This document shows positions 494-19,044 of a DNA stretch of 37,508 nucleotides, one piece after another. The stretch's first letter is position 1; each line of letters starts with the position of its first letter. The notes beneath the pieces are model-generated. The model ran no database searches. It was not told where the DNA came from and saw only the letters and a list, made by a program, of their open reading frames with translations. Position numbers and translations under genes: made by a program. Source of the stretch: an uncultured Alphaproteobacteria bacterium (GTDB lineage: Bacteria > Pseudomonadota > Alphaproteobacteria > Bin95); the NCBI GenBank assembly GCA_937891825.1, contig CALAHN010000158.1:1-37508 (forward strand), in the 5' to 3' direction.

Positions 494-524
494 TTGTATG
501 GGAGAGTATATTCCCTATATGTTC
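494..524 (+). promoter_or_regulatory. Putative promoter with LexA-like site ahead of the terminase operon
   Basis: TTGTAT (494-499), a 16-bp spacer and TATATG (516-521) form a weak sigma70-like promoter about 110 bp upstream of the small terminase. Overlapping the -10 is ATTC-N7-GTTC (510-524), one mismatch from the alphaproteobacterial LexA box GTTC-N7-GTTC. The 10-mer TATATGTTCC (516-525) is the exact reverse complement of GGAACATATA at 6190-6199 in front of the capsid gene. That repetition supports a real regulatory site, but a phage-specific activator or repressor could bind it instead of LexA. Confidence 0.4.
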
Positions 525-629
525 CAGAGAGGGCATGCGCCCGCCGCTTGGCGCCGCGCCGTTCCCTCCCAACACATCAACGATACGGCGCCGGTTCGCG
601 CCGGTTCGCGCGTTTCTGGAGTGACGATC

Positions 630-1205
630 ATGACGCCGAAGCAGGACCTTTTCGTTCGGGAATATCTGGTCGATCTGAGTGCGCCGCAGGCCGCAAAGCG
701 CGCCGGATATGGCGGGCGATCGAGCGCCAAGCTGATGCGAACGCCCGTTGTCCTGGCGAAAATCCGGCAGGCGCAGGCCGAGCGGGCGGCGAACCTGGCG
801 GTTTCGGCGGAGCGGGTGCTGGCGGAATATGCGCGGATCGCCTTCGCCAATATGGCGGATTTCGCGGACTTTGGGCCCGATGGGCTGACGCTGAAGGACA
901 TGGCGGCGCTCACGCCCGAGCAGACCGCCGTCATCGCGGAAGTCACGGAGACGAAAACCAGCCGGGGCGGCGTCGTGCGGTTCAAGTTGCATGACAAGCT
1001 GGCGGCGCTGAATGCGCTCGCCAGGCATATCGGCCTCGCGGCGCCGGAGAAGCTGGCGCTGACCGACAGCACGGGCGCCGATCTCCCGCCGCCGGACCCA
1101 TCGGAAATCGCCCGCCAGATCGCCTTCGCCCTCCGCCAGGGGATCGAGGATCGGGCGGGTTCTGATAAAGAACAAAACAAGAAAAAAAGATCCGACAGGG
1201 ATTGA
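630..1205 (+). CDS. Phage terminase small subunit
   Basis: This is the DNA-recognition subunit that brings phage DNA to the large terminase for packaging. The 191-residue product opens with MTPKQDLFVREYLVDLS, followed by an APQAAKRAGYGG helix-turn-helix segment (residues 15-35), the hallmark of the Terminase_2 family. The middle contains the usual helical oligomerisation region with an FANMADFADFGPDG segment, and the C-terminus is a charged, lysine-rich tail (DKEQNKKKRSDRD). ATG at 630 has GGAG at 618-621, eight bases upstream. The same frame extends upstream to 477 but without family-like sequence or a ribosome site. It is the first gene of the late operon. A terminator-like hairpin lies between it and the large subunit. 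Confidence 0.9.
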   Translation: MTPKQDLFVREYLVDLSAPQAAKRAGYGGRSSAKLMRTPVVLAKIRQAQAERAANLAVSAERVLAEYARIAFANMADFADFGPDGLTLKDMAALTPEQTAVIAEVTETKTSRGGVVRFKLHDKLAALNALARHIGLAAPEKLALTDSTGADLPPPDPSEIARQIAFALRQGIEDRAGSDKEQNKKKRSDRD

Positions 1206-1326
1206 ATCCGGCGCGGGCGTTCCCATCTTCTGGAACGGGAGAGGCGCGTCCTTCAGGATCGCCCGCGACCCCGTTGCAACCACTGACACGACCGACCCTC
1301 CCGCCCGATGCCCGCCGGCCGGTCCA

Positions 1327-1344
1327 AGCCCGCGCGGGCTTTTT
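1327..1344 (+). terminator. Terminator-like hairpin between the terminase genes
   Basis: The palindrome AGCCCGCGCGGGCT (1327-1340) is followed by a run of T (1340-1344), as in a rho-independent terminator or attenuator. It sits in the 187-bp gap 1206-1392. That gap also holds a smaller hairpin, CGTTCC (1218-1223) pairing with GGAACG (1232-1237). It may lower transcription from the small terminase into the large one. Confidence 0.5.
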
Positions 1345-1392
1345 CATGGGCTGTCGCGCTGTCCTGTCCACATGCCTGGGAGATGCAAGCCC

Positions 1393-2961
1393 ATGTCGCT
1401 GCTCGACGACATTCTTGCGCGCTATGCGGCGCTCGATCCGGCCGTCCAGGCCGATGTGGCGGCGCGGGCGGCGGCGGCGGTGGGGGACCGGGTCTGGCTG
1501 CCCAATCCGGGGCCGCAGACGGAGGCCTATTTCTCGAAGGCCGACGTCACCCTGTTCGGCGGGCAGGCGGCGGGCGGCAAGAGCGACCTGCTGCTGGGGC
1601 TGGCGGCGACGGCGCACCGGCATAGCCTGATCATGCGCCGGGAATATGTGGCGCTCGCCGGGCTGACGGAGCGGGCGGGCGCGATCCTTGGGCGCGGCGC
1701 CGTCCGCCTCGCGCCGCCGCCGCGCGCCACGACCGCCGACGGGCGCCTGATCGAGTTCGGCGCGGCCCAGCATGTCGGCGACGAAGCCAAGTTTCAGGGA
1801 CGCGGCCGGGATTTCCTCGGGTTCGACGAGGCGGCCCAGTTCACGGAAGCGCAGGCGCGGTTCCTGATGGGCTGGGTCCGGACCGCAATCCCCGGCCAGC
1901 GGGCGCGGGCGGTGCTTGCGACCAACCCGCCGCTGGACGCGCGCGGCGAATGGCTGATCCCCTATTTCGGCCCCTGGCTCGATCCCGCCTATCCGAAGCC
2001 GGCGCGGCCGGGCGACCTCCGCTGGTTCGTGACCGCGCCCGACGGCAAGGACCTGGAAACGCCGGACGGGCGGCCGGTCGAGCTTGCGGGCCAGACGCTC
2101 CGCCCGAAGTCGCGGACCTTCATCCCGGCGGCGCTCGCCGATAATCCCTATCTGGTCCGCACGAATTACCGGGCCGAGCTGGATGCGCTGCCGGAGCCGC
2201 TCCGCGCTGCGATCCGCGACGGCGATTTTCTCGCGGCCCGCCAGGACGATGAGTGGCAGATATTGCCCGCCGCCTGGGTCGAGGCCGCGATGCGGCGCTG
2301 GCGGCCGGCGCCGCCGGAAAGCGCGCCGATGTGCGCCATCGGCGTCGACGTGGCGCGGGGCGGCGCGGACCAGACAGTGCTCGCGATCCGGCACGACAAC
2401 TGGTTCGCGCCGCTGGTCGTGAAGCCCGGCGCCGAAACGCCGCTCGGCACGGACGTGGCCGGCCTCGTCGTCGCCTGCCGCCGGGATAGCGCGCTGCCGG
2501 TGATCGACATGGGCGGCGGCTATGGCGGCGCGGTGATCGAACATCTGGCGGGGGCGAACGCCATTCAGTGCATCGGCTTCGTGCCGGCCGGCGCATCGAC
2601 GGCGCGGACGGCGGACGGGCAATTGCGCTTCGCCAACAAGCGGGCGGAAGCCTGGTGGAAGTTCCGCGAGGCGCTCGATCCATCGGGGGCGGACGCGGTC
2701 GAGATGCAGTTGCCGAACGATCCGATCCTGCTGCGCGACCTGACGGCGCCGACCTTCCGCGTCGGCCCGCGCGGCATTCAGGTCGAGGCGAAGGATGAGA
2801 TCAAGGCGCGGCTCGGCCGGTCGCCCGACCGGGGCGACGCCGTCGTCCTGGCCTGGGCCGGCGGCCCGCGCTGGCGCACCCACGAAACCCAATGGCGCGG
2901 TCACGCCCGCCGCCGGCCCGAGGTGATCCTCGGCCGGCCCCATCAGAAACGCAGGAGATAA
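1393..2961 (+). CDS. Phage terminase large subunit (ATPase/nuclease)
   Basis: This is the packaging motor: the ATPase drives DNA into the procapsid and the nuclease cuts the concatemer. In the 522-residue product the Walker A is GGQAAGGKS (56-64) and the Walker B is FLGFDE (141-146). The C-terminal RNase H-like nuclease shows acidic residues in the expected places: Asp319 in IGVDVARGG, Asp372 in VIDMGGG and Asp482 in RGDAVVLAW. Length is normal for the family. The start at 1393 is preferred over an in-frame ATG at 1372 because GGGAGA (1378-1383) is well placed only for 1393. The next gene begins two bases after its stop codon. Confidence 0.93.
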   Translation: MSLLDDILARYAALDPAVQADVAARAAAAVGDRVWLPNPGPQTEAYFSKADVTLFGGQAAGGKSDLLLGLAATAHRHSLIMRREYVALAGLTERAGAILGRGAVRLAPPPRATTADGRLIEFGAAQHVGDEAKFQGRGRDFLGFDEAAQFTEAQARFLMGWVRTAIPGQRARAVLATNPPLDARGEWLIPYFGPWLDPAYPKPARPGDLRWFVTAPDGKDLETPDGRPVELAGQTLRPKSRTFIPAALADNPYLVRTNYRAELDALPEPLRAAIRDGDFLAARQDDEWQILPAAWVEAAMRRWRPAPPESAPMCAIGVDVARGGADQTVLAIRHDNWFAPLVVKPGAETPLGTDVAGLVVACRRDSALPVIDMGGGYGGAVIEHLAGANAIQCIGFVPAGASTARTADGQLRFANKRAEAWWKFREALDPSGADAVEMQLPNDPILLRDLTAPTFRVGPRGIQVEAKDEIKARLGRSPDRGDAVVLAWAGGPRWRTHETQWRGHARRRPEVILGRPHQKRRR

Positions 2962-2963
2962 CC

Positions 2964-3197
2964 ATGGGCGGATTGCTCAAGACCCCGAAACCGCCGGCGC
3001 CGGTCGAACCGCCGGCCATCCCCGACCGCGACGGCGAGGCCGAACGCCGCGCGCGCCGCCGCAGCCTAGCCGCGAGCCGCAGCCGCTCCGGCGTGCTTTC
3101 GACCATCCGGCAGAAGGCGGGCGGCACGCTTGGCGCCAGCACCATCCTCGGCAGCTTCGGCGCAGGCGGGTCGAACGACCGCCTGGGGGGCCTCTGA
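2964..3197 (+). CDS. Small conserved phage protein between terminase and portal
   Basis: The 77-residue protein starts at ATG 2964 with AGGAG six bases upstream (2953-2957). It has a proline-rich N-terminus (LKTPKPPAPVEPPAIP), a basic stretch (ERRARRRSLAASRSRSG) and a glycine-rich C-terminus. Short proteins with this layout, a Pro-rich head then RRRxRAS-like and LGxxxxLG-like motifs, are common just before the portal gene of podoviruses and are usually annotated as hypothetical. The layout recalls T7 gp7.3, a minor virion/tail protein, but that link is only a resemblance in composition and position. Its TGA overlaps the portal ATG (TGATG). Confidence 0.7.
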   Translation: MGGLLKTPKPPAPVEPPAIPDRDGEAERRARRRSLAASRSRSGVLSTIRQKAGGTLGASTILGSFGAGGSNDRLGGL

Positions 3198-4972
3198 TGC
3201 AGACAGGCGATGCGCGCGGCCCGGATGATGACCCGGCCGCAGCGGACGCCCGCCGCGACAGAGCGGCGGCGCGCGTCCAGGGCTTGATCCAGGAAGGCGA
3301 GCGCCTGTTCGCCCAGCGGACGGCGCTCGCCGGCCACTGGCAGGACGTCGCCATGAATTTCTATGTGGAGCGGGCGGATTTTACCGTCGGCCACGGCGGC
3401 GGCTTCGATTTCGCGAGCCATCTGATGACCGGCCAGCCGATGCAGGCCCGACAGGAGCTGGCGAACGCCATCGGCGGCATGCTGCGGCCGCCCGGCCGGA
3501 ACTGGTTCGCCCTGCGCGCCAGACACGGCGGCCCGAAGGACGGCGTGCTCTCCCAGGCGGTCAAAGCCTGGCTGGAGAACCGCCAGCGCGTCATGCGCGA
3601 AGCGATGTATGAGCCGGCGGCGATGCTGCAACGGGCGACCAAGCAGGCGGACAACGATTATGTGACCTTCGGCAACGCCGTGATCTCGGTCGATGTGAAC
3701 TGGCGCGACACGGCCTTGCTGTATCGGTGCTGGCATCTCCGGGATGTGGCGTGGCTGGAGGATTTCACCGGCCGGATCGATGAGGTGCATCGGCGCGAAA
3801 CCCGCTCGGCCCATGACGTGATGCGCCTGTTTCCGGCAAGCCATGCGCCGGAACTCGCGCTGTTGCGGCCGGAGGAAGCCCGCCAGCGCCAGATCCAGTG
3901 CCGCCATATCGTGTTGCCGGCCGACCGGTTCGGCGATCCGTCGATCCGTCAGCCCTATGTCTCGGTCTATATCGACGTCGAGCATGACCGGCTGATGGAA
4001 GCGGCGGGGCGGCCGACGCTGGGCTATGTCATCCCGCGCTGGCAGACGATTTCCGGCTCGCAATACGGCTTCTCGCCGACCGTCGTCGCGAGCCTCGCCG
4101 ACGCCCGGACGTTGCAGGACATGACGCGCACCATCCTGGAAGCGGGCGAGAAGGCGGTCGATCCGCCGATGGTCGCGACCCAGGAAGCGGTGCGCTCGGA
4201 CCTCGCGTTGTTTCCGGGGGGCGTGACTTATGTCGACGCGGCTTATGACGAGCGGCTGGGCGCGGCGCTCCGGCCGATTTCCCAGGACCGCTCCGGCTTG
4301 CCGGTCGGACTGGAGATGCAGCAGGACCTGCGCGCCCAGATCGCGGCCGCCTGGATGCTGAACAAGCTGACGCTGCCCGGCGCCGGCCAGGGCATGACCG
4401 CCTATGAGGTCGGCCAGCGCATCCAGGAATATATCCGCCAGGCCTTGCCGCTGTTCGAGCCGATCGAGGCCGAATATAACGGCGCGCTTTGCCAGGAGAC
4501 GTTCAAGACCCTGGCCTCGGTCAATGCGTTCGGCGACCGCTTTCAATTGCCGGACGAGCTGCTCTCCGAAGAGGTGGAATTCGAGTTCGACAATCCCTTC
4601 ACCGTCGCCGGCGATCAGGAAGCGCTGGTCCGATATCGGGAAGTCGCGGGCGTGCTCGCGGCCCAGAAGCAGATCGATCCGGCGGCCGATGTCGAACTCG
4701 ACCTGCGCGCCATGTACCGCGATACGCTGCAGGCGGTCGCGGGCTCGGCGCGCTGGATCAGGGACGAAGCCCAGGCGGCGGCGGCGCGGGCGGCGCTCGA
4801 CCGGGAGGCCGAGCAGGCGGCGGCCATGAACGCGCTCGCGGCAGGCGGGGCGGCCGCGAGCAGCGTCGGCCAGGGCGCCAAGGCGGTCCGCGAAGGCGTC
4901 GGCGATCAGGCGCTCGAGGCCTTGCTCGCCGCCGCGGCGGAGGAAGGGGCGGCGGACGATGAAACTGCATAA
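3197..4972 (+). CDS. Portal (head-tail connector) protein, T7/podovirus type
   Basis: The 591-residue portal forms the dodecameric ring at the packaging vertex through which DNA enters and leaves, and to which the short tail attaches. Family features visible are the N-terminal helical region ending in ALAGHWQDVAMNFYVERADF, the RQELANAIGGMLRPPGRNWFALR segment typical of Head-tail connector proteins, YGFSPTVVASLADARTLQDM in the middle (crown/stem area), and TAYEVGQRIQEYI near residue 400. The C-terminal 80 residues are alanine-rich and coiled-coil-like. Translation is probably coupled to the preceding gene through the TGATG overlap, and its end overlaps the next start by 14 bp. Confidence 0.92.
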   Translation: MQTGDARGPDDDPAAADARRDRAAARVQGLIQEGERLFAQRTALAGHWQDVAMNFYVERADFTVGHGGGFDFASHLMTGQPMQARQELANAIGGMLRPPGRNWFALRARHGGPKDGVLSQAVKAWLENRQRVMREAMYEPAAMLQRATKQADNDYVTFGNAVISVDVNWRDTALLYRCWHLRDVAWLEDFTGRIDEVHRRETRSAHDVMRLFPASHAPELALLRPEEARQRQIQCRHIVLPADRFGDPSIRQPYVSVYIDVEHDRLMEAAGRPTLGYVIPRWQTISGSQYGFSPTVVASLADARTLQDMTRTILEAGEKAVDPPMVATQEAVRSDLALFPGGVTYVDAAYDERLGAALRPISQDRSGLPVGLEMQQDLRAQIAAAWMLNKLTLPGAGQGMTAYEVGQRIQEYIRQALPLFEPIEAEYNGALCQETFKTLASVNAFGDRFQLPDELLSEEVEFEFDNPFTVAGDQEALVRYREVAGVLAAQKQIDPAADVELDLRAMYRDTLQAVAGSARWIRDEAQAAAARAALDREAEQAAAMNALAAGGAAASSVGQGAKAVREGVGDQALEALLAAAAEEGAADDETA

Positions 4973-5243
4973 GCCCGAACCCTGGAAGCCGGCGGACTAC
5001 GACCGCGCCGATCATGTGGCGGTGATCGCGCTCGCGGCCGGGACGGCGACGCCCGCCCAGCAGCACATCGCCTGGGCGTGGATCCTGTTCGCGTCCGGCG
5101 TCAGCGACAAATCCTTCCGCGCGGGCGGCCTCGCCGGCCAGCGCGACACGGATTTCGCCGAAGGCAAGAAGTGGGTCGGCGAGCAGATGCTGAAGCTCGC
5201 CCAGACCAATCCCGCAATCCATGACAAGCGAGACGAACCATGA
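4959..5243 (+). CDS. Small phage protein, Bbp19-like
   Basis: A 94-residue protein begins inside the portal gene's last codons and ends in an ATGA overlap with the scaffold gene. The C-terminal half, with QRDTDFAEGKKWVGEQMLKLA, matches my recollection of a short conserved phage domain that follows the portal in Bordetella phage BPP-1 (Bbp19) and relatives; its role is not established. The N-terminal half, with AQQHIAWAWILFAS, is moderately hydrophobic but too polar for a clear membrane span. The position between portal and scaffold suggests a head-assembly or minor virion role. A homology search would settle the family. Confidence 0.65.
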   Translation: MKLHKPEPWKPADYDRADHVAVIALAAGTATPAQQHIAWAWILFASGVSDKSFRAGGLAGQRDTDFAEGKKWVGEQMLKLAQTNPAIHDKRDEP

Positions 5244-6139
5244 CCGATACCGAGATGCCCGGCGCCGACGCGCCCGAAACCGATGTCGATGACGCGGACG
5301 CCACGATGCTGGCCAAGCTGCTGAACGACGGCCAGGCGGACCGTGCCGGGGCTGACGCGGATGCTGCGGCCTGGCCGGAGGACTGGCGGGCCAGGCTGGC
5401 GGGCGCGGACGAACGCCTCGCCCGGCGGCTCGAGCGGTTCCAGTCGCCGCGGGCGGTGATGGACTCCCTCCTCGCGGCCGAAGCCCGGCTCCGGGGCGGG
5501 GACAAGGGCCTCGCCGCGGATGCAAGCCCCGAGGCGCTCGCCGCCTGGCGCGCCCAGAACGGCATTCCGGAAGCGCCGGAGGACTATGAGGTAGCGCTCC
5601 CCGACGGCATGCTGATCGGCGAAGAGGATCAGCCCCTGGTCGACGCCTTCCTGGCGACGGCCCATACGGCAGGCATGACGCCGGATCAGGTCAACCGGAC
5701 GCTTGGCTGGTACTACGATCACGTCGATCGGCAGATGGCCGACCAGGCCGAACAGGACTCGATCCGCCGCGAGGCTTCGGCCGGCGCGCTCGCGAAGCTC
5801 TGGGGCGCGCGCTTCAAGGCGCACGCCAATCAGGTGAACGCCTTCCTCGGCGACGCGCCGGAGGGCATGCGCGAAAGCTTGCTGGCGGCCCGCCTGCCGG
5901 ACGGCTCGCTGCTGGCGGACGATGTCGGCATCCTGGCCTGGCTCGGCGACATCGCCGCCAGGACCCGCGGCGCGCCCACCCTGACGCCCGCCGCCCAGGG
6001 CGGCATGGCCAGCGCCGTCCGCGACGAGATCGCGAAGATCGAGGCCTACATGGCGTCCGACCGTTCGGCCTATTTCAAGGACGAAAAAGCCCAGGCGCGG
6101 TATCGGGAACTGCTTGAAGCGGCCGCGCCGCGCCGCTGA
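5240..6139 (+). CDS. Capsid assembly scaffolding protein
   Basis: The 299-residue acidic protein lies directly before the major capsid gene, the standard scaffold position. The N-terminus is rich in Asp/Glu/Ala (MTDTEMPGADAPETDVDDADATM) and likely disordered. A motif EDYEVALPDGMLIGEEDQPLVDAFLATAHTAGMTP, typical of podoviral scaffolds (around residues 112-150), follows. The C-terminal third is helical and ends basic (YRELLEAAAPRR), as expected of the capsid-binding end of scaffolds. ATG 5240 overlaps the previous stop as ATGA. The protein should be transient, guiding procapsid formation and then leaving or being degraded; no protease gene was identified nearby. Confidence 0.85.
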   Translation: MTDTEMPGADAPETDVDDADATMLAKLLNDGQADRAGADADAAAWPEDWRARLAGADERLARRLERFQSPRAVMDSLLAAEARLRGGDKGLAADASPEALAAWRAQNGIPEAPEDYEVALPDGMLIGEEDQPLVDAFLATAHTAGMTPDQVNRTLGWYYDHVDRQMADQAEQDSIRREASAGALAKLWGARFKAHANQVNAFLGDAPEGMRESLLAARLPDGSLLADDVGILAWLGDIAARTRGAPTLTPAAQGGMASAVRDEIAKIEAYMASDRSAYFKDEKAQARYRELLEAAAPRR

Positions 6140-6173
6140 CGGCAGCGCGGCGGATTTTTTCCTGCCGGAAGAC

Positions 6174-6205
6174 TTGCAAAATCCGCAAGGGAACATATAT
6201 CGAAC
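6174..6205 (+). promoter_or_regulatory. Putative capsid-operon promoter overlapping a LexA-type box
   Basis: TTGCAA (6174-6179), a 16-bp spacer and TATATC (6196-6201) resemble a sigma70 promoter. Overlapping it is a perfect GAAC-N7-GAAC direct repeat (6191-6205), the LexA-box form used in alphaproteobacteria. It lies in the 249-bp gap 6140-6388 before the capsid gene. The rest of that gap holds only GC-rich sequence with no further feature I can support. The layout matches the site at 494-524. Confidence 0.45.
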
Positions 6206-6388
6206 ATCAGAGAGCGCGCGTCCGCCGGCTGACCCGTTTCGGCGGCCCCGGCGGCGGCGCTTTCCTTCCTCAGTAGCAGTGGCCCCGATGGCGGGCGGGC
6301 GGTTTCGGCCGCTTGTTCCCGCGTCCTTCGGCCGACCCATGGCGAACAGGCTCCCCACCCATCCAATCGCAATCGAGGAGCTTGCACC

Positions 6389-7219
6389 ATGACCGCGACA
6401 GCGGCCCAGACCCAGTACCGGAAAGAGTTCGTTTCCGGCTTCGAGCAGCGGATGTCGCTGCTGCGCCAATCCGTGACCAAGGAAGCCGTCATCAAGGGCA
6501 ATCAGGCGACGTTCCTGGTCGCCGACAGCGGCTCGGCGACGGCGCAGACCCGGGGCAATAACGGCAAGATCCCGGCGCGCTCCGATACCCTGACCCAACC
6601 GACCGCGACCCTCGTCGAAAAGCACGATCTGGTGCAGCGCACCGGCTTCGACGTCTTCGCGAGCCAGGGCGACGGCCGGCGCATCATGCAGGAAACCAGC
6701 ATGGGCGTGATCAACCGCGACATCGACCAGACGATCCTGACCGAGCTCGCGACCGCCTCCCAGTCGACCGGCGCGGCGGCGACCGCCAGCCTGACGCTGG
6801 TGCTCCGGGCCAAGACGATCCTCGGCAATAACGAGGTGCCGTTCGACAACAACATCTCGGCCGTCGTCAGCCCGGCGTTCCACGCCTACCTGATGCAGAT
6901 CGACGAATTCGCGAGCGCCGACTTCGTCAACAACAAGCCCTTCACCAGCGAACAGCAGATGTTCCGCTGGGTCGGCGTCAACTGGATCGTCCATCCCAAC
7001 CTGCCGGGGAAAGGCACGAACGCCGAGCAGTGCTTCATGTATCACGCCAGCGCCATCGGCCATGCCTGCAACATCGACGAGCTGCAAAGCGAAATCGGCT
7101 TCAACGCCGAGCAGCAGTATTCCTGGGCGCGGACGTCGATCTTCATGGGCGCGAAGCTGCTGCAGAACGCCGGCGTCGTCACGATGGCCCATGACGGCTC
7201 TGCCCTCGTCGCCGCCTGA
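6389..7219 (+). CDS. Major capsid protein
   Basis: The 276-residue protein builds the head shell. It opens TATAAQTQYRKEFVSGFEQRMSLLRQSVTKEAVIKGNQATFLVADSG, matching the capsid family found in temperate podoviruses after the scaffold gene. Later landmarks are SMGVINRDIDQTILTELATAS (about 109-130), AVVSPAFHAYLMQIDEFASADFVNN (150-175) and a C-terminal SEIGFNAEQQYSWARTSIFMGAKLLQNAGVV segment. The start is well defined: AGGAG (6376-6380) lies eight bases before ATG 6389. Its own upstream promoter-like region fits the need for high expression. The next gene follows after 23 bp. Confidence 0.92.
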   Translation: MTATAAQTQYRKEFVSGFEQRMSLLRQSVTKEAVIKGNQATFLVADSGSATAQTRGNNGKIPARSDTLTQPTATLVEKHDLVQRTGFDVFASQGDGRRIMQETSMGVINRDIDQTILTELATASQSTGAAATASLTLVLRAKTILGNNEVPFDNNISAVVSPAFHAYLMQIDEFASADFVNNKPFTSEQQMFRWVGVNWIVHPNLPGKGTNAEQCFMYHASAIGHACNIDELQSEIGFNAEQQYSWARTSIFMGAKLLQNAGVVTMAHDGSALVAA

Positions 7220-7242
7220 CCTGAAGAAAGGAACGCAGAACG

Positions 7243-7503
7243 ATGGCTTATAGCGCCAACAACCCGCCCAGCCTGATCGCGGACAGCATCGGCGGCGGCG
7301 GCTCCCTCTGGCTGTACAAGTCGGCTGACGACGACGCGACCGTGAATGGCGCGAACTACGTGGCGAACGCCCGTGATCTCGGCCTCGCGGTCGGCGACCT
7401 CGTGCTCGTCATCGATACCGCGACGCCGAAAGGCTCCTTCCACTATGTGGCGAGCCTCAACGCCGGCGGCGCGGCGACCCTGGCCTTCGGCGCGGTCGCC
7501 TGA
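7243..7503 (+). CDS. Small virion protein following the capsid (possible head decoration)
   Basis: An 86-residue protein, MAYSANNPPSLIADSIGGGG followed by LWLYKSADDDATVNGANYVANARDLGLAVGDLVLVID, belongs to a short family often found immediately after the capsid gene in phages of this type. The composition (Gly/Ala/Asp, beta-strand-like, no charged tail) would suit a head decoration or accessory protein, but this is inferred from position. AAGGAACG lies ahead of ATG 7243. A strong hairpin (7540-7567) follows its stop, so it probably shares a high-abundance transcript with the capsid. Confidence 0.75.
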   Translation: MAYSANNPPSLIADSIGGGGSLWLYKSADDDATVNGANYVANARDLGLAVGDLVLVIDTATPKGSFHYVASLNAGGAATLAFGAVA

Positions 7504-7539
7504 TCGGCGGCCGCCTGGCCTGAGAGCCGGGGCTGAGGG

Positions 7540-7567
7540 CGGGGGCGGCGTTACGGCGCCGCCCCCG
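7540..7567 (+). terminator. Strong GC hairpin after the capsid pair
   Basis: A perfect 11-bp stem (CGGGGGCGGCG 7540-7550, CGCCGCCCCCG 7557-7567) encloses a 6-nt loop. There is no T run, so it may act as a transcript stabiliser or partial terminator separating abundant capsid mRNA from the tail genes. The surrounding gap is 7504-7625. Confidence 0.5.
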
Positions 7568-7625
7568 GACGGCGCCCGCGCCCCATGTCTGCCGCTTGAA
7601 TTCCATACCCCCAGGGAGACCTCCC

Positions 7626-8111
7626 ATGACGATCCCCCAAACCCCGGCGCCGGCGCGCTCGAAGCGCCTTGCGCCGCATCGGCTCAATCTCGCGGAGTTT
7701 GTCCGTTCGCCCTATCGCCTGACGCCGGAGATGGGCGCCACGCTCGACGATGTGCTGGCGCCCGACTATCTGGTCCATGTCGCGGAGCGGCTGAAGGCCG
7801 GCGACAAGCTGGAAATCATGCCGGACTGCATGACCTGGTACGCCGAAGCGCTTGTCGTCGACGCGACCCGGCTTTCGGCCAGGATCGCGCTGCTCGTCGG
7901 GCCGATCGTAATCGACGCCGGCGAACAGGTGCTGGCCGATGACGCTTTCGAGGCCCGCTGGATCACCCCGGCCGTCCGCTTCGGCGTCCGCCGCAAGGCC
8001 GACGGCGCTTATGTCGTCAAGAACCTCGCGACCAAGGCGGACGCCGAGCGCTGGATCGCGGACCGCGTCGGCCTGCGCGCCGTCGCCTCGACCGAGGAGC
8101 CCCGCCCGTGA
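7626..8111 (+). CDS. Hypothetical phage structural/head-completion protein
   Basis: The 161-residue product is unrecognised at family level. ATG 7626 is preferred over a TTG at 7596 because GGGAG (7614-7618) is correctly spaced for it. The N-terminus is Pro/Arg-rich, the middle (LAPDYLVHVAERLKAGDKLEIMPDCMTWYAEALVVDA) looks like alternating helix and strand, and the C-terminus (VRFGVRRKADGAYVVKNLATKADAERWIADRVG) looks like a small beta domain that could mediate protein contacts. The position between head and tail tubular genes, with a GTGA overlap into the latter, suggests a virion or assembly role. Confidence 0.65.
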   Translation: MTIPQTPAPARSKRLAPHRLNLAEFVRSPYRLTPEMGATLDDVLAPDYLVHVAERLKAGDKLEIMPDCMTWYAEALVVDATRLSARIALLVGPIVIDAGEQVLADDAFEARWITPAVRFGVRRKADGAYVVKNLATKADAERWIADRVGLRAVASTEEPRP

Positions 8112-8743
8112 CCGACCGGTTGAGCCTCTATAACAAGGCGCTGCTCTATTGCTCGGAGACGCCGCTCGCGAGCCTGGCGGACGATGCTGTCGCCCGCCAT
8201 GTGCTCGATGCGGTCTGGGACGGCGGCGCCGTCGCGAAGATCCTGGAGGAGGGCTATTGGAACACGGCGCTCCGCACGCTCGAACTCGATTTCGACACGG
8301 ACGTGGAGCCGCCGTTCGGCTATGCCCGCGCCTTCCGGCATCCCGACGATCTGATCCGCGTCAATGCGCTGACGACCGATCCCTACCTGACCGAGCCTTT
8401 GCTCCGCTACCTGGACGAGGCCGGGTACTGGTATGCCGATGTCGACTGCCTGTACGTCTCCTATGTGTCGGAGGATCCGGCGTTCGGCGGCGATCTGGCG
8501 CGCTGGCCGGCGTCGCTCGCGGAAGCGGCGGCCCGGTGGCTGGCGTCGGTCGCAGCCCACGGCTTCAACAAGGCCGAGGCGCAGATCCAGCGGATGGAGC
8601 TGGCGGCCGAGCGCGCCTTCACGGTCGCCCGCAGCCGCGACGCCATGAACCAGCCGACGCGGTTTCCGCCTGCCGGCCGCTGGACCACGGCGCGGCGGGG
8701 CTTCGGCGGGCAGGGGCGGGATCCCCACAGCCGATGCGGGTGA
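8108..8743 (+). CDS. Tail tubular protein A-like (gp11-type) adaptor
   Basis: The 211-residue protein resembles T7 gp11-type tail tubular proteins, which form the ring joining portal and nozzle. MTDRLSLYNKALLYCSETPLASLADD with VLDAVWDGGAVAKILEEGYWNTALR is the characteristic N-terminal helical bundle. FGYARAFRHPDDLIRVNALTTDP and YADVDCLYVSYVSED follow as the central beta part, and a helical C-terminal half contains ERAFTVARSRDAMNQ. It starts at GTG 8108, overlapping the previous stop as GTGA, with GAGGAG just upstream (8094-8099). Its last 10 bp overlap the next gene. The final 20 residues are Gly/Arg-rich and may be flexible. Confidence 0.82.
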   Translation: MTDRLSLYNKALLYCSETPLASLADDAVARHVLDAVWDGGAVAKILEEGYWNTALRTLELDFDTDVEPPFGYARAFRHPDDLIRVNALTTDPYLTEPLLRYLDEAGYWYADVDCLYVSYVSEDPAFGGDLARWPASLAEAAARWLASVAAHGFNKAEAQIQRMELAAERAFTVARSRDAMNQPTRFPPAGRWTTARRGFGGQGRDPHSRCG

Positions 8744-11406
8744 CGCCGGCGCTGCTCGCGTTCAATCGCGGGCTCTTGTCGCCGCTCGGTCTGGCGCGCA
8801 TGGACCTTGCGCAACTGCAACTCTCCGCCGAGGAGCAAACCAACTGGATGCCGCGGGCGCTCGGTTCGATGATGCTGCGGCCGGGCTTCGAATATCTGGG
8901 CCCCGTCCGGAACCATGCCGCCGCCGTCACGATCCCGTTCGTGTTCGAGGTCGACGACCAGGCGCGGCTCGAGTGCACGCCGGGCTACATGCGGCCGTGG
9001 ATCGATGACGCCGTGCTGACGCGGCCCCCGGTGGCGACCCGTTTGCTGAACCCGGATTTCTCCGTCGGGCTGACCTACTGGACGGCGGCCGACGAGGGCG
9101 CCGCCGCATCGACCTGGGCCGCCGGCGAGCTCCGGCTGAAGGGCGACGGCGTCAATCCCGCCCGCCGACGCCAGGCCGCGACAGTCGCCCTGGGCGAGAT
9201 CGGCCTGGAGCACGCCGTTCGGATCGAAGTGCGGCGCGGCCCTGTCATCCTCAAAGTCGGAACGGGCGAAGGCCTGGACGATCTGATCGGCGCGACGGCG
9301 CTGGCGCCGGGCTGGCATTCCCTGAGCTTCACGGCGAGCGCCGCCGACGTGCATGTCGAAGTCTCCCATAGCGGCGATTTCACGGTCGCGCTCGCCCGCG
9401 TCGATATTGAAGGCGGCGGGCCGATGGATGTGCCGACGCCCTATGCCGCCGCCGATCTGGCCAAGCTGCGCTGGACCCAATCGCGGGACGTGATCTTCCT
9501 GGCCTGCGACGGTTATCAGCAGCGCCGGATCGAGCGGCGCGGACCCCGGTCCTGGTCCGTCGTCCGCTATGAAGCCGACGACGGCCCGTTTCGGGACGAG
9601 AACCTTGGCCGGACGACCTTGCAGGCGTCCGCGCTTTCCGGCGACGTGACCTTGACCGCCTCGGCGGACGTGTTTCAGGCGGGCCATGTCGGCGCCCTGT
9701 TTCAACTGACGAGTTCCGGCCAGCGCGTGGCCGTGACCGCTGCTTTGCCCGATCCGGCGGCGGACGTGTTCTCGGGGTCGATCCGGGTGACGGGCGTCGG
9801 CCAGACCCGCGCTTTCACCGCGACCCGCGCCGGCGGCGCCGACCATGTGGCGACGCTGCAACGGTCCGTCGGCGTCGAAGGCGATTGGGAGGACGTGCAG
9901 ACGATCCCGGTCGGGGCCGGAACCACGATCGACGACGGCCTCGACAACCAGATCATCTTCTACCGGATCGGCGTCAAGGCGGCCGGGTTCGGGGCGGACG
10001 GTCCGGTCGATCTCAGCTTGAGCTTCGCGCGCGGCGCGATCGACGGCGTCGCGCGGATTACCTCGGTCTTCGGCCCGCGGCTTGCGGCGGCGGTCGCGCT
10101 GAAGCCCTTTGGCGAAACCGAACCGACGGAGATCTGGGCCGAGGGCGAATGGTCCGACGCACGGGGCTGGCCGACGGCGACGGCGTTGTTCCAGGGCCGC
10201 CTCTGGTGGGCCGGGCGCGGGCGGCTCTGGGGCTCGGTCTCCGATGCGTTCGCAAGCTTCGACGCTGGCTTCGACGGCGACGCCGGACCGATCGCCAAGA
10301 CCATCACCGATGGTCCGTCCGATGTCATCTCCTGGATCGCCGTCGGCCAGCGCCTGACCCTGGGCGCGGTCGGCGGCGCGCTCGAAGCCAGGTCGTCGTC
10401 TCTGGATGAGCCGCTGACCCCGACGAACTGCCACTTGAAGCGGTTCGCGACGACGGGCGTCGCGTCAATGCCGGCGGTCGTCATCGACGATCGGGTGCTG
10501 TTCGTCGAACGGGCGGGGCAGGAGGTGATGGAAGCCAGTCTGGGCGACCGCGCCGTCATGCAGACGCTGCGGCTGACGGCGCTGGTGCCGGAACTGGGCG
10601 GCGGCGGCTTCCGCAAGCTTGCGGTGCAGCACCAGCCGGACGTCCGGGTCCATGCCCTCCGCGCCGACGGCACGGCCGCCTGCCTGATAACGGACCCCGC
10701 CGAAAACGTGCGTTGCTGGATCGAGATCGAAACCGATGGCGAAATCGAAGACGTGACCGTGATGCCGTCGGCGCTTGAAGATGCGGTCTATTACACGATC
10801 AAGCGCACGATCGGCGGCCAGACGCGGCGCTATCACGAGCGGTGGGCGCCGGAGAGCGCCTGCAGGGGCGGGACGGTCAATCGCCTGGCCGACAGCCATG
10901 TCTGCTATGCGGGGCCGGCGACGGCGACCGTATCGGGGCTGGCCCATCTGGAAGGCAAGCCCGTCGTGATCTGGGCGGACGGCGCGGCGCGGGCGTCGGC
11001 AGTCGTCGCCGGCGGCGCTGTCGCGATTTCCGGCGCGCCGGCGACATCGGCGACGGTCGGGCTCGGCTACCGCGCCCGTTATCGCAGCGTGAAGCTGGCG
11101 CACGGCGCGCAGAAGGGCACGGCCTTGATGCAGCCAAAACGGATCAATCGGCTGTCGTTCATTCTGGCGGACGTGCATGCGTCCGGCCTGCGGTTCGGCC
11201 CCTCCTATGAGGCGCTGACGCCGCTGCCGGCGTTGCCGGCCTTCAAGCCGATCGATCCGGATAAAGTGCACCGCCATTACGACTTCGACGGCGCGCAGTT
11301 TCCCGGAGTCTGGACGACGGATGCCCGGGTCTGCCTCGAAGCGGCGGCGCCGAAGCCGGTCACGGTGCTGGCGATGGCGGTCGATCTTGAAACCGTCGAA
11401 CGGTGA
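8734..11406 (+). CDS. Large tail tubular protein B-like / nozzle protein
   Basis: This 890-residue protein is the largest virion gene. The N-terminal segment MRVTPALLAFNRGLLSPLGLARMDLAQLQLSAEEQTNWMPRALGSMMLRPGFEYLG is the conserved opening of large podoviral tail proteins that I equate with the tubular B/nozzle component. The body is rich in beta strands. WPTATALFQGRLWWAGRGRLWGSVSDAFASF (about 480-515) and SDVISWIAVGQRLTLGAVGGALEAR are typical family segments. The same frame is open upstream to 8149, but that is a shadow of the preceding gene; ATG 8734 begins exactly at the conserved sequence and overlaps the upstream stop by 10 bp. The ribosome site is weak, so translation is probably coupled. 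Confidence 0.82.
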   Translation: MRVTPALLAFNRGLLSPLGLARMDLAQLQLSAEEQTNWMPRALGSMMLRPGFEYLGPVRNHAAAVTIPFVFEVDDQARLECTPGYMRPWIDDAVLTRPPVATRLLNPDFSVGLTYWTAADEGAAASTWAAGELRLKGDGVNPARRRQAATVALGEIGLEHAVRIEVRRGPVILKVGTGEGLDDLIGATALAPGWHSLSFTASAADVHVEVSHSGDFTVALARVDIEGGGPMDVPTPYAAADLAKLRWTQSRDVIFLACDGYQQRRIERRGPRSWSVVRYEADDGPFRDENLGRTTLQASALSGDVTLTASADVFQAGHVGALFQLTSSGQRVAVTAALPDPAADVFSGSIRVTGVGQTRAFTATRAGGADHVATLQRSVGVEGDWEDVQTIPVGAGTTIDDGLDNQIIFYRIGVKAAGFGADGPVDLSLSFARGAIDGVARITSVFGPRLAAAVALKPFGETEPTEIWAEGEWSDARGWPTATALFQGRLWWAGRGRLWGSVSDAFASFDAGFDGDAGPIAKTITDGPSDVISWIAVGQRLTLGAVGGALEARSSSLDEPLTPTNCHLKRFATTGVASMPAVVIDDRVLFVERAGQEVMEASLGDRAVMQTLRLTALVPELGGGGFRKLAVQHQPDVRVHALRADGTAACLITDPAENVRCWIEIETDGEIEDVTVMPSALEDAVYYTIKRTIGGQTRRYHERWAPESACRGGTVNRLADSHVCYAGPATATVSGLAHLEGKPVVIWADGAARASAVVAGGAVAISGAPATSATVGLGYRARYRSVKLAHGAQKGTALMQPKRINRLSFILADVHASGLRFGPSYEALTPLPALPAFKPIDPDKVHRHYDFDGAQFPGVWTTDARVCLEAAAPKPVTVLAMAVDLETVER

Positions 11407-11842
11407 CCGGATAAGGCCCGCGAGCGCCGAAGACATCCTGGCCTTCTATGGCCGTCGTCTGCCCTGGCGGGCCCGGGCGCTCGCCGTCACGGACGCTGCC
11501 AGCCGGTTGATCGGCCTTGGCGGGTTCAGCTTGCAGCCCCATGGCTTGACGGTCTTCATGGATGTCGCGACGGGGGTCGACCCGGCACGCCACAAGCGGG
11601 TCCTGATCCGGGCGGGCCGTCAGGTGATGCAGACGGCGCGGGCCATGGGCCGGCCGGTGCTGGCCTGCCGTGAGGCGGATTGGCCGGCCAGCGCCAACCT
11701 GCTGGCGCATTTCGGCTTCGAGAAAATCTCAGGCGAGGGCGCAGGCGAAATGTGGGCGCTCAATACAGCAATTGAGCCGTTTGGCGGGCTGGAACGGCCT
11801 GGCGAAGGCGGAACAGGAGAGAGAGCATGGGCAATCCGTTGA
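11387..11842 (+). CDS. T7 gp13-like GNAT-fold internal virion protein, start uncertain
   Basis: The product (about 150 residues) reads IRPASAEDILAFYGRRLPWRARALAVTD, then a strand-turn-strand GLGGFSLQPHGLTVFMDV, a helix KRVLIRAGRQVMQTARAMGR and a final ANLLAHFGFEKISGEGAGEMWAL. This is the N-acetyltransferase-like layout of the T7 gp13 family. The start is unclear: no ATG or GTG is in frame near the conserved opening. A TTG at 11387 would add eight residues; an ATA at 11411 fits the family start but is very rare. A GTG overlapping the previous stop (11403) is in another frame and meets TAA after three codons. It overlaps the next gene by 16 bp. Confidence 0.65.
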   Translation: MKPSNGDRIRPASAEDILAFYGRRLPWRARALAVTDAASRLIGLGGFSLQPHGLTVFMDVATGVDPARHKRVLIRAGRQVMQTARAMGRPVLACREADWPASANLLAHFGFEKISGEGAGEMWALNTAIEPFGGLERPGEGGTGERAWAIR

Positions 11843-12309
11843 TGGCGGCCGGCAGCGCGATCGGTCCCGCGATTTCAATCGTCTCGAACTTGCGCGCGGC
11901 GAAGAGCGCCAATCAGATGGCGAAGGCGCAAGCTGCCGAATTGCACAAGCGGGCAAACCACAGGCGCGCCTTGAGCCAGCGCGAGGCGCAGGACGCAGCG
12001 ACAAAATCCGCGCTCGCCCGTTCGCGGTTTCGCGCGCTCGCCGCCGCGGGCGGCGGGGGCGGCGACCCGACGACGCGCACGGTCCTGGCGCGTATCCAGG
12101 GCGAGGGCGCGCTGAATGCGCTCAACTTGCTCGCCAATGGCGAATTCCGGGCGCAGAGCCATGATTTCGCCGGCGACGCCGCCAGGTTCGAAGGCAAGGT
12201 TCGATACCAGAAGGCCGTTCTGGATGCGATCTCCGACGCGACCTCGTTCGCCGCGAAGTTTGCGCAACCGCAGCCCGGACAGGCGAAGCGGACCGCGCCG
12301 CCCAGATAA
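11827..12309 (+). CDS. gp14-like small internal virion protein
   Basis: The 160-residue protein has an N-terminal Gly/Ala-rich hydrophobic segment (MGNPLMAAGSAIGPAISIVSNL), a long basic helical region rich in Ala, Gln and Arg (KSANQMAKAQAAELHKRANHRRALSQREAQDAATKSALARSRFRALAAAGG), a GGGGG hinge near residue 77 and a helical C-terminus ending in proline-rich sequence. This amphipathic organisation and the position after a gp13-like gene match T7 gp14-type proteins, which line the portal channel and help form the ejection conduit in the host envelope. GGAGAGAGAGC precedes ATG 11827. It is the last virion gene before the aminotransferase; no large gp15/gp16-like ejection protein follows. Confidence 0.7.
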   Translation: MGNPLMAAGSAIGPAISIVSNLRAAKSANQMAKAQAAELHKRANHRRALSQREAQDAATKSALARSRFRALAAAGGGGGDPTTRTVLARIQGEGALNALNLLANGEFRAQSHDFAGDAARFEGKVRYQKAVLDAISDATSFAAKFAQPQPGQAKRTAPPR

Positions 12310-12420
12310 GGCGCGCGGGCCGCTAACCCTTATGGGCTTTGCGTTTGCGGGCGATGCCGCTAATGAAGATCGGGCGCTGTTGTGGCGCGGCCTTCAGCTT
12401 TGTTTTCCGGATTGACCGCC

Positions 12421-13527: not shown

Positions 13528-13560
13528 CGGGCGCCGGGCCGCGAAATTTTTCTCGATCCG

Positions 13561-13614
13561 TTATTGCGATTTCCGCAAATAACCCCACATAGGCGTTCGC
13601 GGACTTGCGTCCGC
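13561..13614 (+). promoter_or_regulatory. Palindromic AT-richer spacer behind the aminotransferase
   Basis: In the 150-bp gap 13528-13677 an imperfect palindrome centres on TTGCG-ATTTC-CGCAA (13564-13578) with flanking TTAT/ATAA. It is followed by a hairpin GCGGAC-TTGC-GTCCGC (13599-13614). Either could be an operator or terminator for the aminotransferase unit. No clear promoter is visible. Confidence 0.3.
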
Positions 13615-14761: not shown

Positions 14762-17296
14762 ATGAGTTCACCCACCTACGGACCCGCAGGCGTGCTGGCT
14801 GAGGGCGCCGCCGAGTTCGTGACCTGGAAACAGTTCGGCGCGGTCGGGGACGGCGTCGCGGACGATGCGCCTGCGATCAACGCCTGCATGGCGCATGCAA
14901 AGGCCAACGGCCTGGAAGTCCGCGCCAGCAAACCGGCGGTCGGATATCGGATCGCCAGCCCGATCGACATCTATGACGGGACGATCCTGCGGGGCGGCAA
15001 TCGGGTGCATACCCGCGTCATCGCCGACCGGACGCACGGCGTCGTCATGGCCGACAGCCCAAGCGCGGGCGGCGGTCCGGGCCATACCGGCGATTGGGAA
15101 ATCCACAATATCCTGTTTGTCGGGAATGACGATACGGCGCTCGACGGCGACGATCATATCGGCCTGAATATCGAGCGCGCGGTCCGGTTCCTGGTCGATC
15201 GCTGTGAAGTGCGGGGCTTCACCAATGCCGTCGTCATCGACGGCCGCACGGGACCGAACGGCGCCTTCGGAGTCGGCGACGGCAAGTTCGTCGATTGCCT
15301 GCTGCAAATCGATACCGCCAAGCCGCAGTTCAACCCGAACAATGCCTATCCCCAGGATCTGGTGGCGTTTAAATCAGAACAAAACGGGACCGGAGGCGCC
15401 GATGGCGTCTCGTTTCACAATTGCCGGTTCTATGGCGAAATCTCGACCCAGGCGAAGCTCTTCGAAGGCGATGGCGCCGAGACCGACCTTGCCTATGGCG
15501 CGATCCTGGAAGGCTTCGCGGTCACGAAGGTGTTGACCGACGCGGCGCATATGCAGCTCGACCATGTCGCGACGGCCGGCGGCGCGCGCGACCGACTGAC
15601 CGCCGGGGTCGAGTACGCGCTGAGCGGCGCCGGCACGAACACGCCAAGCTTCGATTTCGCGGGCGGCTCCGCGCCCCTGGGCGCGCCAGCCGCGGTCCCG
15701 CTCCTGAGCGCGACGGGCGACGGCGTGACGAAGGCGTTTCGCCTGGGCGCGCGGCCCTCATATCCCGCGTCGGTCGGCGGCCGCTCGGTCGTCGCGCGCG
15801 TGGCGGGCGTCGCACAGACGCCAGGCGCCGCCTACTATGTCGTCGACGAGAACAACCGGACATTCACGTTCACAGGCTCGGCCGCGAACGACACCCTGAC
15901 CGTCGGCGCGACCGGTATCCTGGAGTTCCTGGACGCCGAGGGCAATGCCGCGACCGGTCGGATCGTCCGGCTGACGACGACCGACGCCCTCCCGGCGGGG
16001 CTTGTCGTCGCGACCGACTATTATGCGACCGCGATCGATATCGCGACGGGCGCCTTCAAGCTTGCGGCCACATATGCCGACGCGATCGCGGCGACGCCGA
16101 CGGTGATCGACCTGACCGACGCCGGAAGCGGCGCCCATAGCGTCACGCTCGCCAACGCCATCGAGTTCACGGCAGCGCCGGCGGCGAGCGCCGCGATCGC
16201 GGTCGCGGATCTCAACCTGCGGGCGCGCTGGATCGATCCGAATGTCCCGGCTTGCGTTCGCTTGTGCCGGGGCGCGCAACGGATCGGCTTTTTCTCCTGC
16301 GCCTTCGGCGGCGGCCGGGTCGGCGTCGATTTCAATCATGCGCGTCGCTGTCTGATCGCAGACGCCTACTTTCAGATCCATGAGCACGCGGTCAGCTTCG
16401 GCGCCGATGCGACGGAAAACGCCATGGTGGGGTTCTCCAGCCGGACGGACGCGACGATCCTGTTCGACTTCGCCGATGACGGCAGCATCGCCGAAACGAA
16501 CCAGATCGACGCCTTCCTCCCCAAGAATACAGCTGTCCGGGATCAGTTCCTGATCAAGGAAAGCTTCGACGAAAGCGACGATGACGCGGGCATGCTGCGG
16601 AAGGCGGCGAATATCGTCAGCCTGGAGAACCGGAACGCCGACGGCTTCATTCAATTGAAGATCGGCGCCAAGATCGTCTACGGCTTCAGCAACAACCTGG
16701 ACGCACACTCGTTCTATAACAAGGCGGGCGGCGAGCTGGTCCGGATCAGCGAATTCAGCGGCGACGCACGGGTATCGGCGGCGTCCGGCAAGGGCCTGCA
16801 GATGCGCTCCGACAACGGCGGCAAGAATGTCACGCTCTCGACCGCCGGCGGCTTTTATCCGGGCCTGAACGGATCCCAGGACCTCGGTCTTGCATCCAGA
16901 CGCTGGAGCACGGTGTTCGCCGCGACCGGCGCGATCGACACGTCGGACGCCGGCCTGAAACAGGACGTCCGCGCCCTGACGGCCGCCGAAGCCGCGGTCG
17001 CCCTGCGGCTATGCGATCTGGCGCGGATCTTCCGCTTTGTCTCGGCCGTCGCCGAGAAAGGCGCCGGCGCGCGCCTGCATGCGGGCGTGCTTGCCCAGGA
17101 CGTCGCCGCCGCCTTCGCCGCGGAGGGGCTGGACGCCGCCGCCTACGGCGTCTGGTGCTTCGACGCCTGGTACGAGGACGCGGAGGGCGCGCTTTACGAT
17201 GCGCCCGGCGAGGGCCGGGTTCTCAAGGAGATGCAGGGCGTGCGCTACGCCGAACTCTACGCCTTCATGATGTCGGCGCTGGCGACGCTGCTGTAG
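14762..17296 (+). CDS. Tailspike with pectate-lyase-like beta-helix and S74 self-cleaving chaperone
   Basis: The 844-residue protein probably binds and degrades a host surface polysaccharide. Residues 20-60 (VTWKQFGAVGDGVADDAPAINACMAHAKANG) are the entry motif of pectate_lyase_3-type right-handed beta-helices, which run on past residue 230 (DGVSFHNCRFYG) and resume around 490-620. Between them is an inserted beta-rich region (about 280-480) made of fibre-like modules. The C-terminus is a Peptidase_S74 intramolecular chaperone: IDTSDAGLKQDVRAL carries the catalytic Ser728 and Lys733 with the normal five-residue spacing, followed by HAGVLAQDVAAAF and the final helix. It should trimerise and release about 117 residues by autocleavage before Ser728. 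GGAG precedes ATG 14762. Confidence 0.9.
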   Translation: MSSPTYGPAGVLAEGAAEFVTWKQFGAVGDGVADDAPAINACMAHAKANGLEVRASKPAVGYRIASPIDIYDGTILRGGNRVHTRVIADRTHGVVMADSPSAGGGPGHTGDWEIHNILFVGNDDTALDGDDHIGLNIERAVRFLVDRCEVRGFTNAVVIDGRTGPNGAFGVGDGKFVDCLLQIDTAKPQFNPNNAYPQDLVAFKSEQNGTGGADGVSFHNCRFYGEISTQAKLFEGDGAETDLAYGAILEGFAVTKVLTDAAHMQLDHVATAGGARDRLTAGVEYALSGAGTNTPSFDFAGGSAPLGAPAAVPLLSATGDGVTKAFRLGARPSYPASVGGRSVVARVAGVAQTPGAAYYVVDENNRTFTFTGSAANDTLTVGATGILEFLDAEGNAATGRIVRLTTTDALPAGLVVATDYYATAIDIATGAFKLAATYADAIAATPTVIDLTDAGSGAHSVTLANAIEFTAAPAASAAIAVADLNLRARWIDPNVPACVRLCRGAQRIGFFSCAFGGGRVGVDFNHARRCLIADAYFQIHEHAVSFGADATENAMVGFSSRTDATILFDFADDGSIAETNQIDAFLPKNTAVRDQFLIKESFDESDDDAGMLRKAANIVSLENRNADGFIQLKIGAKIVYGFSNNLDAHSFYNKAGGELVRISEFSGDARVSAASGKGLQMRSDNGGKNVTLSTAGGFYPGLNGSQDLGLASRRWSTVFAATGAIDTSDAGLKQDVRALTAAEAAVALRLCDLARIFRFVSAVAEKGAGARLHAGVLAQDVAAAFAAEGLDAAAYGVWCFDAWYEDAEGALYDAPGEGRVLKEMQGVRYAELYAFMMSALATLL

Positions 17297-18194: not shown

Positions 18195-18611
18195 ATGCCC
18201 CGCCATAGCCAGCGCAGCCTGGCCAATCTTTCCGAAGCCCATCCGGCGCTCAAGGCCGTTTTCAGCGAAGTCATCAAGCGGTTCGATCACGTCGTCATCG
18301 AGGGCTATCGCGGCAAGGCCGAGCAGGACGCGGCGTTCCACGCCGGGAAATCCAAGCTGAAGTTCCCGCAATCCATGCACAACCGATCGCCCGCCCTCGC
18401 CGTCGACGTCTGCCCCTATCCGATCGACTGGAGCGATGTCCGGCGCTTCCATCTGTTCGCGGGCTATGTGCTCGCGACCGCCCTCGCCATGGGCGTCCGG
18501 CTCCGATGGGGCGGCGACTGGGACGGGGATTTCAACTGGCGGAACCAATCCTTCCATGATCTGCCGCATTTCGAACTGCTCGACGCAGGCCCCTATGCCA
18601 TCGCCGTATGA
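18195..18611 (+). CDS. Endolysin, M15-family L-alanyl-D-glutamate peptidase
   Basis: This 138-residue zinc peptidase is of the T5 endolysin/VanY kind and cleaves peptidoglycan stem peptides at the end of infection. The metal site is visible: His62 in QSMHNRSPALAVDV with Asp71, then the C-terminal DLPHFEL with Asp122 as probable general base and His125 as the third zinc ligand. EGYRGKAEQDAAFHAGKS is the characteristic N-terminal segment. No signal peptide is present, so export needs the holin encoded next. AGGAG (18183-18187) precedes ATG 18195. Confidence 0.92.
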   Translation: MPRHSQRSLANLSEAHPALKAVFSEVIKRFDHVVIEGYRGKAEQDAAFHAGKSKLKFPQSMHNRSPALAVDVCPYPIDWSDVRRFHLFAGYVLATALAMGVRLRWGGDWDGDFNWRNQSFHDLPHFELLDAGPYAIAV

Positions 18612-18630: not shown

Positions 18631-19044
18631 ATGAGCCTTCTGGGCACGATTCTCGGGGCCGGCGTCGCGGAGCCGGTGCGCGCTGTGGCCACGATCCTGG
18701 ACGACCTTTTCACGTCCGACGAAGAACGGCTGGACAAGCAGGAAGCGTTGCTGCGGCTGGCGCAGCGCCCGGCGCTGGTCCAGGCGGAAATCAACAAGGT
18801 GGAGGCGCAGCACCGCTCGGTCTTCGTCGCCGGGTGGCGGCCGTTTATCGGCTGGGTCTGCGGTTGCGCGCTCGCCTATTCCTTCGTCGCCAGGGACCTG
18901 CTGGCCTGGGCGCTTGCGGTCGCAGGCTCGACCGCGGCCGCGCCGCCGGAACTGGCGATGGAGCATCTGATCACCATCCTGATGGCGCTGCTCGGCCTCG
19001 GCGGTTTCCGGACCTTCGAGAAGCTGCAAGGGAGGGCCAAGTGA
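18631..19044 (+). CDS. Phage holin (Holin_3TMs-type)
   Basis: The 137-residue protein has an amphipathic, charged N-terminal part (DDLFTSDEERLDKQEALLRLAQRP) and then the family motif RSVFVAGWRPFIGWVCGCALAYSFVARDLLAWALAVAG, giving one or two membrane spans. A last span is EHLITILMALLGLGGFRTFEK. This order is characteristic of the three-TM holins that follow endolysins in alpha- and betaproteobacterial prophages. It permeabilises the inner membrane so the peptidase reaches the wall. AGGAGA (18619-18624) precedes ATG 18631, and the stop overlaps the next ATG (TGATG). Confidence 0.85.
   Translation: MSLLGTILGAGVAEPVRAVATILDDLFTSDEERLDKQEALLRLAQRPALVQAEINKVEAQHRSVFVAGWRPFIGWVCGCALAYSFVARDLLAWALAVAGSTAAAPPELAMEHLITILMALLGLGGFRTFEKLQGRAK

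Follow-up and report, generated by a model that had tools for sequence, protein, structure and literature searches.

The capsid promoter of a podovirus-type prophage in an alphaproteobacterium probably carries an operator for the host repressor LexA, which is the best reading of an exact LexA-like box placed over its -10 element. The prophage lies in the window, the whole stretch of 37,508 nucleotides analysed here; the window is the whole of contig C158, so its base 1 is a contig end, and the host genome (G000) comprises 4,297,217 bases in 163 contigs. The window holds the late cassette of this prophage, running from the gene for the small terminase subunit (terS) to the holin gene (630-19044) and holding packaging, capsid, tail and lysis genes only (Table 1). 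The late genes are open frames whose order is collinear with that of the two closest relatives, L098 and L099, an aminotransferase gene excepted. This class I/II (HisC-like) gene (12382-13527) lies between virion genes in the window and is absent from both relatives.

Host metabolic genes follow to the right of the cassette, beyond the holin gene, and the sequence right of the holin gene resembles, by eye, the remnant of a gene that is intact in L257. An RTX-like calcium-binding-repeat ORF occupies 27858-31232; within its translation, a segment of about 0.58 kb seems to be tandemly duplicated. The left neighbour of terS is a truncated opposite-strand ORF of leucine-rich-repeat character by eye, without Pfam or PHROG match, while in L098 the gene directly left of terS is an opposite-strand guanylate-cyclase-domain gene without a phage-family match. 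No integrase, repressor or replication genes were seen in the window, which starts at the contig end, and the early region of the prophage, outside the window, was not found. In the distant relatives L187 and L213, repressor-like and replication genes are located upstream of terS. Several leads were rejected: the integrase on contig C47, considered as the missing half of the prophage, has no adjoining phage structural genes, contig C123, considered as a prophage, offers an S24/HTH regulator only, the repeats at the cassette ends that resembled att sites amount to an 11-bp match only, and an empty-site comparison through the MmgE/PrpD neighbour failed, synteny being absent in G001. Searches with the capsid gene gave no match at all in the 4 other genomes of the genus and, at E<=1e-60, none in the 13 further genomes of the order, which indicates an element that is recent or mobile rather than vertical and leaves a vertically kept gene transfer agent unsupported.

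Table 1. Regulatory sites and late genes of the cassette, in window coordinates.
Feature	Position	Strand	Basis
Putative terS promoter, TTGTAT-N16-TATATG	494..521	+	sequence; -35 at 494-499, -10 at 516-521
Candidate LexA box GAACATATAGGGAAT, 1 mismatch, overlaps -10	510..524	-	sequence, pattern scans
Shared 10-mer GGAACATATA, copy 1	516..525	-	word scan of window
Terminase small subunit (TerS)	630..1205	+	PF03592 E 7.6e-26; phrog_51
Terminase large subunit	1393..2961	+	phrog_979 E 2.2e-31
Portal / head-tail connecting protein	3197..4972	+	PF12236 E 7.7e-55; phrog_332
Probable scaffold protein	5240..6139	+	inferred from position; phrog_3742 (unknown function)
Putative capsid-operon promoter, TTGCAA-N16-TATATC	6174..6201	+	sequence; -35 at 6174-6179, -10 at 6196-6201
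Shared 10-mer GGAACATATA, copy 2	6190..6199	+	word scan of window
Exact candidate LexA box GAACATATATCGAAC, GAAC-N7-GAAC, overlaps -10	6191..6205	+	sequence, genome scans, relatives
Leader hairpin CCGCCGG-CTGAC-CCGT-TTCG-GCGG-CC-CCGGCGG	6222..6254	+	covariance model R1, 18.1 bits, E 0.43 in 859 kb
Major capsid protein	6389..7219	+	PF19821 E 8e-30; phrog_3437 E 4.2e-65
Tail protein	8108..8743	+	phrog_394
Tail protein	8734..11406	+	phrog_376 E 1.2e-131
Internal virion protein	11827..12309	+	phrog_418
Tail spike/fibre, S74-type C-terminal chaperone	14792..17296	+	PF13884; phrog_7121
Endolysin	18195..18611	+	phrog_465 E 1.9e-34
Holin, last intact cassette gene	18631..19044	+	phrog_3427 E 1.8e-30

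The capsid-side promoter and box sit between the scaffold and capsid genes, with two GAAC half-sites 11 bp apart placed over the -10 element. The original prediction had described this arrangement of a promoter and a perfect GAAC-N7-GAAC upstream of the capsid gene, and it is present exactly as claimed; the second promoter and box, preceding the TerS gene, likewise lie where they had been placed, and the 10-mer said to be common to both sites in inverted orientation is there. What distinguishes the capsid site is the combination of an exact box, an AT-rich spacer and a promoter position. In a sigma-70 scan at 9/12, neither the capsid-side nor the terminase-side -35/-10 pair passes, both being weak matches, which leaves the promoter assignment dependent on position and on the relatives. 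Sigma-70 consensus matches near the capsid genes of relatives (7/55 vs 4.3 expected) were not convincing.

The host genome was searched for the box pattern with the reversed pattern as control, and the surroundings of every exact box were classed by spacer composition and coding frames. The bare box is no evidence, since the genome has 83 exact copies of GAAC-N7-GAAC and 96 of the reversed control, with no excess; the AT-rich exact class, however, consists mostly of SOS promoters. Only 5/83 exact boxes have a spacer with at least 6 AT of 7, and four of these five lie in promoters: the class is made up of the divergent uvrA/ssb pair, nrdA, lexA, the capsid gap of the window and one coding frame on contig C88, the identities of UvrA, SSB and ribonucleotide reductase being confirmed by Pfam. 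The single lexA gene of the host has an exact box (GAACCAAAATAGAAC) 86 bp upstream of the matched LexA domain; the frame caller placed this box inside an over-extended ORF, and its actual position is upstream of the LexA domain. A 1-mismatch box lies within the recA promoter (GAACATTTCGTGGAC) and another in the promoter region of mmcB (PF06319; GAACATAATAGAAAC), so that a single mismatch does occur upstream of SOS genes. These host promoters uphold, within this genome, the identification of the box form as the alphaproteobacterial LexA site. Among related genomes, 4/10 other lexA genes examined have an exact upstream box and 6/10 have none. A small weight matrix based on five host SOS sites carried too much noise to rank the sites reliably and was set aside.

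Two further loci of the host also carry boxes of this form. On contig C47, an exact box (GAACCGTTTTCGAAC; 64110-64124, L017:1501) lies 43 bp before an integrase-like gene, in an island that by eye also has topoisomerase-like and RecD-like genes. On contig C123, a 1-mismatch box (GAACAAAATACGAAA; 1952-1966, L231) lies upstream of the S24-peptidase/HTH regulator.

Conservation was followed in relatives gathered in three ways. The capsid protein was compared with viral contigs, giving L098 (85%) and L099 (82%), with none other above 63%; an alignment search gave 25 loci, mostly from proteobacterial genomes, and the large terminase gave 45 viral contigs, the sets overlapping. The scaffold-capsid gap of L099 contains an exact box (GAACATAGATAGAAC) between TTGACG and TATATA with a 17-bp spacer (TTGACG-N17-TATATA), a clear case of a box at a promoter. 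In L098, the same gap contains an exact box in reversed orientation (GAACATATCGCGAAC) at a distance of 1,054 bp from the capsid gene; two extra ORFs without Pfam match have been inserted next to this box (L098:6345-7459). Neither of these two loci has, besides the gap box, another exact box whose spacer holds 4 or more AT, and the other relatives (950,766 bases) hold 11 such boxes; from this density, the chance of a box in the gap is 0.005 for L099 and 0.022 for L098. Across the window, L098 and L099, the GAAC half-sites are fixed and the spacer is variable, as in host LexA boxes. Some 70 more distant relatives, whose capsids are at most 63% identical or which were found by terminase only, have no such box in the gap, L160 aside; there, an exact box richer in AT than average lies just past the scaffold match, 732 bp before the capsid gene, in a locus that is AT-rich and gammaproteobacterial. 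The box is thus not ancestral, and a single clade seems to have gained LexA control of the capsid promoter. When viral contigs were scanned for the exact sequence of L099 and the window, no further convincing case emerged: the matches outside L099 were in contigs rich in AT, within coding frames or, in one instance, over a ribosome-binding site.

The original prediction extended SOS control to both late operons. The capsid side of this proposal is supported by the host box form and by conservation in the two closest relatives; the terminase side fared worse, and LexA control of terS is the less sure of the two. The terminase-side box reads ATTC-N7-GTTC on the + strand, its mismatch being GAAT, and L098 lacks a counterpart ahead of terS; in L099 the contig covers only the last 28 bp before terS. 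A reading in which the capsid-side box alone is a LexA operator and the terminase-side box a chance or decayed likeness is therefore a serious, if minority, possibility: to the mismatch and the missing counterpart in L098 it adds that AT-rich boxes with at most 1 mismatch are no commoner in the genome than the control (45 places, 6 of them exact, vs 48). Against it stand the 10-mer GGAACATATA and the same kind of -10 overlap that the terminase site has in common with the capsid site, the single mismatches of the recA and mmcB boxes, and a chance of about 0.002 for a one-mismatch AT-rich box in the 230-bp gap (39 places in 4.3 Mb), a figure for a pattern chosen post hoc. Within the window, GGAACATATA occurs at only two places even allowing 1 mismatch, where 0.20 are expected, and 2/100 shuffles contain at least 2 copies; GAAC-N7-GAAC with at most 1 mismatch is at chance level there (28 vs 26 expected). 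One further 1-mismatch AT-rich box (GAACAAAACAAGAAA, 1170-1184) lies at the terS 3' end, upstream of terL.

The joint pattern GGAACATATNNNGAAYAT has exactly three copies in the genome, namely both window sites and one on contig C8 (position 18308); allowing at most 2 mismatches, there are 10 genome matches vs 1 in the control. These counts are suggestive only, because the sites were already known when the pattern was composed. The third copy (C8:18308-18325, L002:1221-1238) precedes a roughly 297-aa ORF that has no Pfam or PHROG match and is directly followed on the opposite strand by a transposase-like gene. Such shared sequence might instead mark both window sites as operators of a phage-encoded repressor or late activator. 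The bases ATATA, common to both sites, extend beyond the LexA half-sites, and a phage regulator could be encoded in the missing early region; more distant relatives have phage repressor-like and replication genes upstream of terS. This explanation is nevertheless unlikely, given that the third copy precedes, on another contig, an ORF without phage-family matches, that half-sites rather than spacers are fixed among the three phages in the manner of host boxes, and that lexA, uvrA and nrdA have the same box form. It is more doubtful still that both likenesses are chance or functionless relics in a dead prophage, for although the bare box is not above control and an apparent gene remnant lies right of the holin gene (whole in L257; by eye), exact boxes are conserved in L098 and L099, the AT-rich exact class is otherwise almost solely one of SOS promoters, and the late genes are open and collinear with those of both relatives.

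Additionally, the leader between the putative capsid promoter and the capsid gene contains a hairpin. In the 170 nt upstream of the capsid gene at 55 loci (the window and relatives), GGMYAMCCY-like words occur at 8.6 per kb vs 0.23 elsewhere and GCYCC words at 12.0 vs 1.8 per kb. They belong to a hairpin whose outer stem closes in GG/CC and whose inner stem has 2-4 pairs, the two being separated by an asymmetric 5+2 internal loop (MYAMC / CY); a GNRA-type loop often caps it. In its strict form the hairpin reaches 1.96 per kb in leaders vs 0.044 elsewhere. Covariation was assessed on hits picked by sequence words alone (n=36), with partners shuffled 2000 times. The next two flanking positions pair in 30/36 and 28/36 hits vs 23.3 and 14.6 on shuffling, and 0/2000 shuffles equal either count, a signal that kinship and repeated modules inflate somewhat. 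The covariance model R1 finds 38 matches in 859 kb, nearly all in capsid leaders on the sense strand, with L099:13472 and L148:8818 as exceptions; 14 of the 38 lie outside the training set, the window hairpin among them. This window copy is a weak match and is not outstanding in a whole-genome search. Many relatives have the hairpin in their leaders, often in 2-3 copies (L163:9834-9864 and 9906-9936, L164:9846-9876, L104:7786-7817). No Rfam family matched it in the loci searched, and aligning the leaders globally over their full length yielded no consensus fold, the hairpin emerging only from modules aligned singly. The covarying hairpin is possibly a new RNA element of capsid leaders in proteobacterial podovirus-type prophages, and at the 5' end of the capsid mRNA it may act on stability or translation.

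Several known systems approach this arrangement. Direct LexA control of structural genes had been called unusual for a prophage; unusual it is, and precedents exist. Operon I of the Staphylococcus aureus pathogenicity islands (SaPIs), which contains a terS homolog and capsid-size genes, is reported to be LexA-controlled (Ubeda et al. 2007, as cited in PMC11442139). The likeness would lie in host LexA acting on a mobile-element operon with terS and capsid-morphogenesis genes, and in the window a 1-mismatch candidate box (510-524) precedes terS; SaPIs, however, use helper-phage capsids and a Gram-positive SOS box, whereas the window element encodes its own capsid, portal and tail, and its box is the alphaproteobacterial direct repeat. 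The temperate phage GIL01 is repressed by host LexA together with phage gp7 at promoter P1, and SOS induces its lytic growth (PMC4551915). Its LexA sites lie at this lysogenic promoter of immunity and replication genes, unlike the window candidates at structural-gene promoters. The SOS consensus of Caulobacter, GTTCN7GTTC (PMC12700426), has the same box and spacing as the window; here the target would be a prophage capsid operon. In Dinoroseobacter shibae, a LexA site was predicted in silico at the gene transfer agent (GTA) cluster (PMC6473078), another phage-derived structural cluster in an alphaproteobacterium, but the window cassette is podovirus-like, and no usefully similar cassette was found in the 13 further genomes of the order. 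In our best reading, the difference from these systems is that LexA would act directly, through an operator of alphaproteobacterial type, on the capsid promoter of an element that encodes its own capsid, a form of control that a single clade has gained. No earlier report of an alphaproteobacterial LexA operator on a prophage capsid promoter was found in the open-access literature.

In the textbook account, a prophage is induced by way of its own repressor or of an antirepressor. With a LexA operator on the capsid promoter, host LexA would instead keep the capsid, tail and lysis genes silent while the DNA is intact. Upon DNA damage, active RecA would prompt LexA to cleave itself, and the capsid operon would then be transcribed along with recA, uvrA and nrdA; through the weaker inverted copy at the terS promoter, the packaging genes would answer to the same switch. 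Computation established the capsid box, its likeness to host SOS boxes, its presence in the closest phages and its absence in distant ones; on these grounds, LexA may bind and repress the capsid promoter and damage may induce it. It is a long shot that in the clade of the window, L098 and L099 the integrated element is a late-gene-only cassette without repressor, integrase or replication genes of its own, for which host LexA is the only switch; if true, damage alone would yield particles, an SOS-driven, GTA-like use of a podovirus. The putative leader hairpin would be a second regulatory element, testable separately from the LexA box. A LexA operator directly on the capsid promoter would couple particle production to damage without any relay through early genes. 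Its restriction to a single clade would also allow the gain of LexA control to be dated and tested.
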